A stretch of DNA of 50,735 bases from Acidobacteriota bacterium (lineage in GTDB: Bacteria; Acidobacteriota; Terriglobia; Terriglobales; Acidobacteriaceae), in the NCBI GenBank assembly GCA_016196065.1, contig JACPYL010000018.1, positions 246,185 to 296,919 of the forward strand. The letters are read 5' to 3'. This document shows positions 2,373 through 18,998 of the stretch, one piece after another. A program made the position numbers and the translations under genes. The notes beneath the pieces are model-generated. The model did no database searches, was not told the origin of the DNA, and worked only from the letters and a program-made list of their open reading frames with translations. Within the stretch, counting starts at the first letter, position 1. Every line of letters starts with the position of its first letter.

Positions 2373-2420
2373 AATTGGTCGGGGAGAGAGGATTTGAACC
2401 TCCGACCCCCTGGTCCCGAA
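2373..2420. repeat. Left attachment repeat (displaced tRNA-Pro 3' half)
   Basis: 48 bp identical to 18951-18998. It covers the tRNA from the anticodon loop (position 33) to the CCA end plus three flanking bases. Downstream of 2420 the sequence diverges (gaagtt here, ccaggt in the intact gene), so this is a non-functional 3' fragment left when the element inserted. Confidence 0.92.
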
Positions 2421-2505
2421 GAAGTTAACGAAGTTCTATCTCATTGATTCGCTTAGCTTGGCTCTGCGTCACAGACCACGGTTTTACCCTGTTTTCGGCA
2501 GGTAA

Positions 2506-2536
2506 TTGACCCAAATATTGACCCAAGTTTGACCCC
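2506..2536 (+). repeat. TTGACCC direct repeats at the left end (candidate integrase arm sites)
   Basis: Three tandem copies: TTGACCCAA (2506), TTGACCCAA (2518) and TTGACCCC (2529), spaced 12 and 11 bp. Two more copies lie at the right end (18878 and 18888) in the same top-strand orientation. The direct-repeat pattern near both att sites fits arm-type binding sites of a tyrosine integrase or excisionase. Function is inferred. Confidence 0.5.
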
Positions 2537-2564
2537 ATTGTTTTTGTTGCTGTTTGGGAGCGCA

Positions 2565-17678: not shown

Positions 17679-17756
17679 CTTGCGCAGGCCGTATACAACG
17701 TTTACGTTGGTGGCCGACGCAGAACCCAAGCTGGGCGGGTCATTTCGGAGGAATGA

Positions 17757-18938
17757 ATGACTCGAAGAAGGTTCCAGCGCGGTTCAATCTACAAGAGAGG
17801 TAAACGTAAGACGGTGTGGGTCGCACGCTTTTCTGAGGATGTGATCGGGTCCGATGGAGCGACGGTAAGCGTACGTCGCTCTGAAGTCTTGGGTACGGTC
17901 ACTGAGATTCCGACTCGACGGCAGGCGGAGCAGCTTCTCGCGGACCGACTGCGTTCGATCAACAGCGGGCAACATCGGCCCAATTCGTCACGCAGTCTTC
18001 GCGATTATGCGGAGACGTTCTGGTTGCCGGTGGTTCTTCCCACGCTCAAGTACTCGACTAAGAAGTATTACCAATACATGCTGAGGGTTCACGTGTACCC
18101 AGCTTTTGGCGAGTTGCAGCTTCGGCTCATCACCCGCGACGCGGTGCAGACTTTTCTTTCTGAGAAGCTTCGTAGCGGTCTGTCTTGGCGGACGGTCAAA
18201 GGTCTCCGAACATTATTTGGGACAGTGATGGCTGCGGCTGAAGCAGATGAGCTGGTTCAGAGTAATCCCGTAAGGAAAACTCGGTTCCCTCGTCGTGGAC
18301 CAGGTAGGCCGAGAGCTCCGATCGCTCCTGAGAAGATTCAGGAACTACTGGAGGCTCTGCCGGAGCCTTGTGCCTCACTAGCTAGGCTGCTTGTCTTTAC
18401 CGGACTCCGGATCGGAGAACTGCTTGCCTTGCGCTGGCGGGATGTCGATCTAGAGCACGGTGTGCTTCGTGTGACTCAAAGTGTTTACGAAGGTCACTTC
18501 GATGAGCCTAAGAGTCAGCGTAGTAAGCGGTCGATTCCCCTTGGCGCAAGAGCGGTTGAGATTTTGTCAGCTCGTAGACCAGCTGGCGTGAAACCAGACG
18601 CTTTGGTGTTCAGCACGCAAGCGGGAACAGCGTACGACAGGCACAATCTCGTCAATCGACAGCTCAAGCCTACGTGCAAGAAGCTGGGATTGAAGGATGT
18701 GGGCTGGCATTGGCTGCGACATGCGAACGCAACTCTGCTTGATTCGGTCGGTACACCGTTGGGTACAGTGCAAGCACTCCTCGGGCATTCGTCTTCTGAA
18801 ATCACCCGCGAAGTTTACTTGCATTCGATCCCTGCGGATGCAAAGGCAGCGGTACAAAAGGTCGAGGATTTGCTTAATCGACCCAAGTTGACCCAAGTTC
18901 CCGAAAACTGGGCAAAAGGAAGCTTGCTAATTCAATGA
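17757..18938 (+). CDS. int: Tyrosine-family site-specific integrase
   Basis: 393 aa, start ATG at 17757 with GGAGG five bases upstream. An N-terminal arm-binding domain precedes a SAM-like core-binding domain (SLRDYAETFWLPVVLPTLKYSTKKYYQYMLRVHVYP, about 80-115). The catalytic domain shows Arg in FTGLRIGELLALRW (about 217), HWLRHAN (HxxR, about 317-320), GHSS (about 341) and the nucleophile Tyr in REVYLHSIP (about 353). All residues needed for recombination are present. It stops 12 bp before the right attachment repeat in the tRNA-Pro gene, so this enzyme is expected to recombine the 48-bp repeats. Two TTGACCC-like repeats lie inside its last codons. Confidence 0.95.
   Translation: MTRRRFQRGSIYKRGKRKTVWVARFSEDVIGSDGATVSVRRSEVLGTVTEIPTRRQAEQLLADRLRSINSGQHRPNSSRSLRDYAETFWLPVVLPTLKYSTKKYYQYMLRVHVYPAFGELQLRLITRDAVQTFLSEKLRSGLSWRTVKGLRTLFGTVMAAAEADELVQSNPVRKTRFPRRGPGRPRAPIAPEKIQELLEALPEPCASLARLLVFTGLRIGELLALRWRDVDLEHGVLRVTQSVYEGHFDEPKSQRSKRSIPLGARAVEILSARRPAGVKPDALVFSTQAGTAYDRHNLVNRQLKPTCKKLGLKDVGWHWLRHANATLLDSVGTPLGTVQALLGHSSSEITREVYLHSIPADAKAAVQKVEDLLNRPKLTQVPENWAKGSLLIQ
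18878..18897 (+). repeat. TTGACCC-type direct repeats at the right end
   Basis: TCGACCCAAG (18878-18887) and TTGACCCAAG (18888-18897), within the 3' end of the integrase gene, match the three copies near the left end in sequence and orientation. They are candidate arm sites for integrase/excisionase. Being inside coding sequence they could partly reflect codon choice (RPKLTQV). Confidence 0.45.
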
Positions 18939-18950
18939 TGGGATTGAGGT

Positions 18951-18998
18951 AATTGGTCGGGGAGAGAGGATTTGAACCTCCGACCCCCTGGTCCCGAA
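18951..18998. repeat. Right attachment repeat (inside tRNA-Pro gene)
   Basis: 48 bp identical to 2373-2420. It overlaps the 3' half of the tRNA gene, from U33 of the anticodon loop through the encoded CCA. The element supplied this half, so the tRNA stays intact after insertion. Strand exchange in the anticodon-loop region is common for tyrosine integrases. Confidence 0.92.

Follow-up and report, generated by a model that had tools for sequence, protein, structure and literature searches.

The DNA analysed here, which we call the window, is a stretch of 50,735 nucleotides from an Acidobacteriota bacterium of the family Acidobacteriaceae (contig JACPYL010000018.1). At its positions 2373–18998 lies a 16.6-kb element, inserted at a tRNA-Pro gene, which from its borders and gene content is very probably a complete integrative element of plasmid-like type, with defence genes as cargo. 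It is real, complete and of a known general kind, and the acidobacterial family that it represents seems to be undescribed. Its relatives are a scattered set of elements that have replication and integration genes in common and no evident way of leaving the cell unaided.

Borders, gene content and composition

A reading of the sequence alone had proposed that the element is complete and bounded by exact 48-bp repeats, and this holds: the two direct repeats, which we take as attachment (att) copies, are identical and stand 16,578 bp apart (Table 1). A direct-repeat search of positions 1–22000 returned two families, that of the element (2370–2420 and 18948–18998, 51 nt, 98%) and a 22-nt pair unrelated to it. 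As the longest exact match to the 48-mer elsewhere in the window, on both strands, is 10 nt, a chance origin of the repeats is excluded. The right copy rebuilds the 3' half of tRNA-Pro(CGG), the single tRNA that ARAGORN finds in the window, and the other copy is displaced; an Rfam scan of the window gave nothing besides this tRNA. The G+C content of the element is 53.2%, versus 57.6–58.8% in 31 overlapping windows of equal length from the right flank; that flank as a whole has 57.9%, the short left flank 55.4% and the 19.5 kb further left 57.2%.

The twelve genes are arranged as minus-strand genes for IetS and IetA, plus-strand hsdM, hsdS, hsdR and a YgjP-like gene, minus-strand orf363, and plus-strand rep, o203, o124, xis and int. 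In the run from hsdM to the YgjP-like gene each gene overlaps its successor. The run from rep to int is tight and stops 12 nt short of the right repeat, so that the integrase adjoins the tRNA. All three genes of the Rep/Xis/Int core could be assigned, and their reading frames are open. The integrase has R218, K252, H318, R321, H344 and Y354, which we take to be its catalytic set; the integration genes thus look as intact as the sequence-only reading had judged them. Among 557 plasmid records matching the integrase, all are below 60% identity, and the eight examined are generic integrases. The excisionase has a further sub-threshold Pfam row, Phage_P2_GpE, at E 0.075.

No conjugation, relaxase or virion family was matched at E ≤0.01 when all 12 element proteins were scanned against Pfam, in line with the absence of conjugation genes noted from the sequence, and the same scan gave no FtsK or coupling-protein family. 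Neither a terminase nor a capsid family was found in the element by the Pfam and PHROG scans, the latter covering 7 of the 12 proteins.

Table 1. Features of the element and its target tRNA gene, in positions of the window.
Feature	Position	Strand	Basis
Displaced att copy, left border	2373..2420	.	48 bp identical to right copy
IetS, S8 protease	2565..4970	-	PADLOC IetS E 3e-65; Pfam Peptidase_S8 1.4e-28
IetA, AAA ATPase	4971..6041	-	PADLOC IetA 7e-90
HsdM	6223..8667	+	Pfam N6_Mtase 2e-102; PADLOC MTase_I E 0; TIGR00497 above cut-off
HsdS	8664..9986	+	Pfam Methylase_S, 2 specificity stretches; PADLOC Specificity_I 3e-80
HsdR	9983..13057	+	Pfam HSDR_N, SWI2_SNF2; PADLOC REase_I E 0; TIGR00348 above cut-off
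YgjP-like metallopeptidase, overlapping hsdR	13032..13775	+	Pfam PF01863 2e-58
orf363, no family, divergent from rep	13803..14894	-	no PHROG or Pfam match
Conserved DNA between orf363 and rep, hairpins	14862..15102	+	72.5% over 255 bp to L055
Rep, predicted HUH replication initiator with IS91-like zinc domain	15097..16431	+	NLHxH and YxxK motifs; fold model
o203	16428..17039	+	C-terminal part (about residue 119 on) alone conserved
o124, hallmark gene	17036..17410	+	zinc-ribbon-like N-terminus (Cys pairs, by eye)
Xis, HTH_17 excisionase	17424..17678	+	Pfam HTH_17 2e-10; PHROG excisionase and regulator 9e-7
Tyrosine integrase, tRNA-Pro clade	17757..18938	+	Pfam Phage_integrase 3e-22
att copy overlapping tRNA, right border	18951..18998	.	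tRNA nt 33-77 plus 3 nt
tRNA-Pro(CGG), intact	18954..19030	-	ARAGORN; Rfam tRNA 65.5 bits

Defence cargo

Both defence systems that had been read from the sequence, IetAS and a type I restriction-modification system, were recognised. The adjacent genes for an AAA ATPase and an S8 protease, with their catalytic motifs, make up an IetAS pair: D, H and S motif stretches are present in IetS (NCBIfam IteS 9e-27, far under its cut-off), and Walker A and Walker B stretches in IetA (NCBIfam IteA 1e-73, under its cut-off). From their family assignments, HsdM, HsdS and HsdR in one operon form a complete type I restriction-modification system.

Replication module

On the fold model, the HxH and YxxK motifs of Rep lie on a predicted HUH fold, which places the protein in the HUH superfamily. 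NLHxH and YxxK are invariant in all nine aligned sequences of its subfamily, and at E ≤1 Pfam matches Zn_Tnp_IS91 in five of these, Rep_1 in four and REP_ORF2-G2P in three. The window's Rep by itself matches Zn_Tnp_IS91 alone (E 0.025), with no RepSA row in Pfam. A Foldseek search with the Rep model gave no match at E ≤0.001, a search of solved structures by sequence nothing meaningful, and searches of plasmids and phages no copy of this Rep.

The conserved, hairpin-containing DNA upstream of rep is a candidate replication origin or control region; single-stranded, positions 14860–15105 are predicted to fold with a z-score of -3.37. The divergent orf363 is a real gene of uncertain start and possibly encodes a regulator. 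One further genome out of 100 (G809) has a homolog, 42% identical over about 300 aa, which adjoins an Xis-like frame, an integrase match and a tRNA-Ser gene; no similarity was found between orf363 and the divergent genes of loci L151 and L150. Downstream of rep, o203 encodes a small, Cys-rich, putatively zinc-finger-like protein (judged by eye), whose residues 119–195 have tblastn matches in L150, L151, L152 and L153, and also in L048.

The tRNA-Pro site in genus mates

In what follows G denotes a genome and L a locus. Of the 24 genomes of the genus, 22 gave a nagA match, the window's own included and that of G014 being too weak for an orthologue, and the nagA regions of 20 relatives were compared (20 regions; G005 in two pieces, G015 in part). 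Nine of these 20 regions hold an intact tRNA-Pro(CGG) with the same 77 nt and zero mismatches. In G010, G020 and G001 the intact tRNA-Pro has no second att copy within 17.4–17.6 kb on its 3' side, and there is no match to the window's integrase at tRNA-Pro/nagA; by these two criteria the three sites are unoccupied. Other tyrosine integrases stand beside the tRNA-Pro in G002, G003 and G011.

By blastn, the element's DNA is missing from all 20 of these nagA regions. Across 55 of 58 loci (the three of its own contig excluded) it matches just L002 and L055, which overlap on a single G011 contig and lie at a different tRNA.

The sequence-only reading had proposed a search of related strains for an empty tRNA-Pro site. 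The tRNA-Pro/nagA arrangement without the element does exist in genus mates, but the DNA on its other side differs. The left-flank operon (genes of 501, 195 and 661 aa) is present in genus mates, located elsewhere: no tRNA-Pro lies near the 501-aa gene in any of 11 loci checked, and the 13 tRNA-Pro/nagA regions checked have no orthologue of the operon, with one paralogous transporter-type match (L036). As the gene block left of the element sits elsewhere in relatives, a clean syntenic empty site is not demonstrated.

In the other regions, four contigs (G009, G006, G007, G022) end within the tRNA, three (G012, G018, G013) have NN gaps within it, and three more fall short of the tRNA or show none. 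We gave no weight to contig breaks at the tRNA as evidence that cells with and without an insertion were mixed, because a tRNA that is identical among species also breaks metagenome assemblies. Separately, in L036 (1437–1531, G017) the tRNA-Pro by nagA is preserved for roughly 34 nt from its start and diverges beyond them, which reflects either a broken tRNA or an assembly fault.

Recurrence of the o124 core

The gene o124, which has no Pfam family at a useful score and no relative in plasmids or phages, is the hallmark of a wider group. Counting the window's own, 22 of the 250 family genomes searched have a match, which extends over at least 95 residues in 11 genomes and over the first 46–65 residues (the zinc ribbon) only in the other 11. 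We examined 21 of the 25 distinct o124 loci outside the window (20 plus L119), leaving out four in G011, G919, G931 and G902. A recombinase gene stands beside o124 in 20 of them, L167 stopping at a contig end. In 17 it is a tyrosine integrase related to the window's, within about 1.1 kb by tblastn and in some cases partial or broken; a large serine recombinase takes its place in L151 (Pfam), L152 and L153 (both by eye). The coordinates of these are L151 7802–9301, L153 10836–12335 and L152 1500–2762, and in L151 and L153 the 3' end of the gene overlaps a tRNA-Pro gene. A tRNA gene lies 3' of the recombinase in 15 of the 21 loci, and five of those 15 have att repeats of at least 20 nt, delimiting 5,754, 9,967, 14,299, 12,212 and 9,141 bp.

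One of these loci belongs to the window's own genome (L164 3125–15359; C12:727000-746900), where a second tRNA-integrated element, at a tRNA-Ser gene, spans 12.2 kb between 23-bp repeats. Its genes include one for a zinc ribbon, one for an integrase, one that by eye is XRE-like and one for a 1584-aa RHS protein.

The sequence-only reading had also proposed a search for other elements with the same Rep, zinc ribbon, Xis and Int core. The o124, Xis-like and Int part does recur beside tRNAs, but the accompanying Rep is of another HUH subfamily or distant. In L150, L151, L153, L154, L155 and L157 an HUH Rep adjoins o124, all of one subfamily and 53–54% identical to that of L155, while L119 has a different one (Pfam Rep_1 1e-10; matched by a nine-row profile of the window's Rep subfamily at E 2e-8). 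A Rep was established in these seven of the 21 loci; tblastn found no Rep of the window's subfamily in the 20 o124 loci other than L119. As far as these searches extend, the combination of that subfamily with full o124 was seen in the window only.

In an integrase tree of 24 rows the window groups with L150 and L155 with support 99/99; the tree omitted L119, L156, L159, L160, L165, L166, L169, L172 and the serine-recombinase loci L151–L153, and one row, L158, is a wrong-frame translation on a long branch, on which no conclusion rests. All three integrases of the clade (L150 52% and L155 58% identical to the window's) sit at tRNA-Pro genes, with anticodon CGG in the window, TGG in L150 and CGG in L155. 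L038, L046 and L052, with integrases outside the clade, also use tRNA-Pro, which speaks against a strict rule of clade and target. In the Pro, Asp, Asp and Val elements the att repeat starts at tRNA nucleotide 33; at Lys, Phe, Ser and SeC genes it spans the last 21–24 nt of the tRNA. L150 and L155 carry the other HUH Rep subfamily (REP_ORF2-G2P 1.4e-14 for L155), and a comparison of profiles relates the two subfamilies (hhalign probability 95, E 5e-8). The simplest reading of these comparisons would be that Rep has been exchanged while Int, Xis and o124 stayed linked.

At L150 (tRNA-Pro(TGG)) the contig stops inside a gene for a restriction endonuclease of the BPTD_3080 family, of which the C-terminal part is matched (E 2e-126; 423 bits, where the full-length cut-off is 800). 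L151 has a protein, possibly part of the element, with a partial, sub-cut-off match to the anti-phage protein ProA (E 1e-27). L163 and L164 encode very long RHS-repeat proteins (Pfam), and L162 and L168 long proteins that are similar by eye. Because the o124 relatives carry such varied cargo, RHS-repeat proteins included, defence is one kind of cargo and no fixed part of these elements.

Elements sharing the Rep subfamily

The window's Rep, searched as a single sequence, matches in 4 of 61 near genomes, own included. A six-row profile matched 8 of 399 genomes of the class and a nine-row profile 7 of 249 genomes of the order, each count including the own genome and the profile rows. The class yielded five new Rep genomes (G449, G481, G507, G523, G571) and the order three (G368, G782, G823), the latter weak at E 4e-4 to 2e-8. 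In 396 genomes of the phylum the single sequence found the window only, in a search whose first pass is coarse.

Of seven Rep loci with a tRNA that were tested, five have att repeats; the two without, L055 and L056, lie on short contigs. The five are L102 (the same place as L085; tRNA-Lys, 7,141 bp), L103 (tRNA-Asp, 7,484 bp), L105 (tRNA-Asp, 7,635 bp), L057 (tRNA-Lys, 8,276 bp) and L104 4078–17979, where three 21-bp att copies mark off two tandem elements of 7,257 and 6,624 bp at a tRNA-Phe gene. In L085 Rep is accompanied by a zinc finger of the CHC2 primase type (Pfam 1e-24), and by BLASTP the same type of finger occurs in L056, L103 and L104. None of the Rep-subfamily loci outside the window has an o124 match.

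The subfamily also occurs on a viral contig, IMG/VR 3300010396_001151 (L088/L109; 17,784 bp, of which 17,622 bp were examined). Its Rep (2954–4162) is 40% identical to the window's over 287 aa, its major capsid protein (6438–7625) is a homolog of the PRD1 capsid protein P3 (E 1e-49), and its ATPase (16618–17262) weakly matches the packaging ATPase B204 of the virus STIV (E 4e-4). It also encodes a Tlde1-domain protein. A search of 299 genomes of the class for a PRD1-like capsid gene gave one weak match, with stops. The PRD1-group genomes of PMC5894146 all share a DNA polymerase; on this contig none was noticed by eye, no dedicated search having been made.

The 7.1-kb tRNA-Lys element (L102 4817–11978, about L085 5209–12370) encodes a packaging ATPase of the type found in double jelly-roll viruses, a CHC2-fused Rep and an integrase. 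The ATPase is 37% identical over 189 aa to that of L109 (STIV B204 E 9e-5) and a small protein 45% identical over 71 aa to its L109 homolog; no match to the L109 capsid protein was found in L085. The gene content of this element suggests a satellite or else a reduced virus. Small winged-helix-like proteins (L172 4804–5076, L161 12946–13188, L085 6724–7119, L109 17394–17621) seem to form a family common to integrated elements and the tectivirus-like contig; L085 and L109 were compared with each other and the rest judged by eye.

Mode of maintenance and movement

We suggest the following course of events. Int and Xis would recombine the two att copies and release a circle of 16.6 kb; Rep would nick the origin, for which 14862–15102 is the best candidate, and the circle would be copied by rolling-circle replication. 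Int would then reinsert the circle at the 3' half of a tRNA-Pro gene, restored by the element's own att copy. IetAS and the type I system may guard the host and compete with other elements. Since no transfer machinery was recognised, movement between cells would depend on DNA uptake or on a helper, either a phage or a conjugative element that recognises Rep or the origin.

The best-placed alternative, which we nonetheless consider unlikely, is that this is an integrative mobilizable element in which Rep doubles as a relaxase and an unlinked conjugative element provides the channel. An HUH Rep could serve as a relaxase, the sibling Rep of L153 weakly matches RepSA of pSAM2 (E 0.0024), and the rep-xis-int layout recalls actinobacterial integrative and conjugative elements (AICEs). 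Against this, none of the 12 proteins matches a relaxase, coupling-protein or FtsK family; an origin of transfer (oriT) was not searched for.

We think it rather more doubtful that the element is an immobile remnant, a defence island fixed in the chromosome. In favour of this, the left flank has been rearranged compared with that of relatives; the identity of the 48-nt repeats, the open core frames and the presence of the integrase residues argue otherwise, as does the absence of element DNA at the same tRNA in the relatives examined.

There is only a slim chance that the element is a phage satellite which relies for packaging on a helper virus, possibly a PRD1-like one using the same Rep subfamily. 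The thought arises from L088/L109, which combines capsid homolog, ATPase and related Rep, and from the 7.1-kb L085 element, which has the Rep subfamily and a homologous ATPase with no capsid match. However, tblastn at E 0.01 found neither the L109 capsid nor the L109 and L085 ATPases in the window, and the element lacks terminase and capsid families. Of six viral-contig scans, two gave L088 alone, one gave L109 and L110, and the three with the zinc ribbon, the other Rep subfamily and Int found no relative. The size match depends on one contig. As the window's element shares only Rep with the PRD1-like virus, a viral helper is a minor rival.

Most improbable of all is a whole clan of capsid-less acidobacterial elements that share the Rep subfamily and ride PRD1-like particles, the 7-kb members supplying a packaging ATPase themselves and bigger members, the 16.6-kb one included, filling a virus-sized capsid with anti-phage cargo; if true, this would be a new satellite system, no such satellites being named among the literature matches listed.

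An integrative, plasmid-like element remains the reading we prefer. Little is known of the routes by which defence genes spread in Acidobacteria. With its precise borders, its hallmark gene and modules for Rep and recombinase that relatives exchange, the element opens the way to automatic detection of others like it, Int together with attP at tRNA-Pro is a candidate integrating vector, and the shared Rep is a concrete link from plasmid-like elements to a PRD1-like virus contig.

Comparison with known systems

The AICE pSAM2 has its genes in the order rep-xis-int next to attP, targets tRNA-Pro and replicates by a rolling-circle Rep. The element differs from it in having no FtsK/TraSA-like translocator, a Rep apparently of another family, and a host of another phylum. 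Integrative mobilizable elements have an integrase, no conjugation channel of their own and possibly an HUH enzyme; here, however, no relaxase family was matched.

Phage satellites, among which PMC11389934 names PICI, cfPICI, PLE, PICMI, VEIMEs and tycheposons, resemble the element in being small, integrated and without a full transfer apparatus, but no helper-exploiting gene was recognised in it. For double jelly-roll viruses, PMC5894146 describes Reps of the rolling-circle kind from several genomes of the PM2 and STIV groups and tyrosine integrases from many of the STIV group. L088/L109 is unlike the PRD1 group as portrayed there, in that a PRD1-like capsid is paired with a Rep related to the window's. 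The element itself is no virus: neither a capsid nor a packaging ATPase, the marks of a provirus, was found.

For Acidobacteria, passages of PMC3174227 report sixteen candidate genomic islands with integrases and tRNAs in the large Solibacter genome, viewed as degraded, and do not describe the architecture seen here. The earlier view that no acidobacterial family of this build has been described stands in so far as none is named among the literature matches listed, most subscription journals being outside their coverage; the general kind is known elsewhere.

The closest described kind is the cryptic integrated element (CIE) of Thaumarchaeota. According to PMC6563490, CIE combine an integrase with diverse replication proteins, include Hsd genes among their components, are mostly below 20 kb (median 17 kb) and are classed apart from proviruses and conjugative elements; one has a rolling-circle Rep homologous to that of the virus SNJ1. 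The features of a CIE or plasmid-like element, namely an att-flanked integrase, an own replication protein and the absence of conjugation and virion genes, are all present in the window's element. The difference is that CIE, as presented there, are archaeal and have no signature gene, whereas here o124 recurs beside xis-like and int genes.
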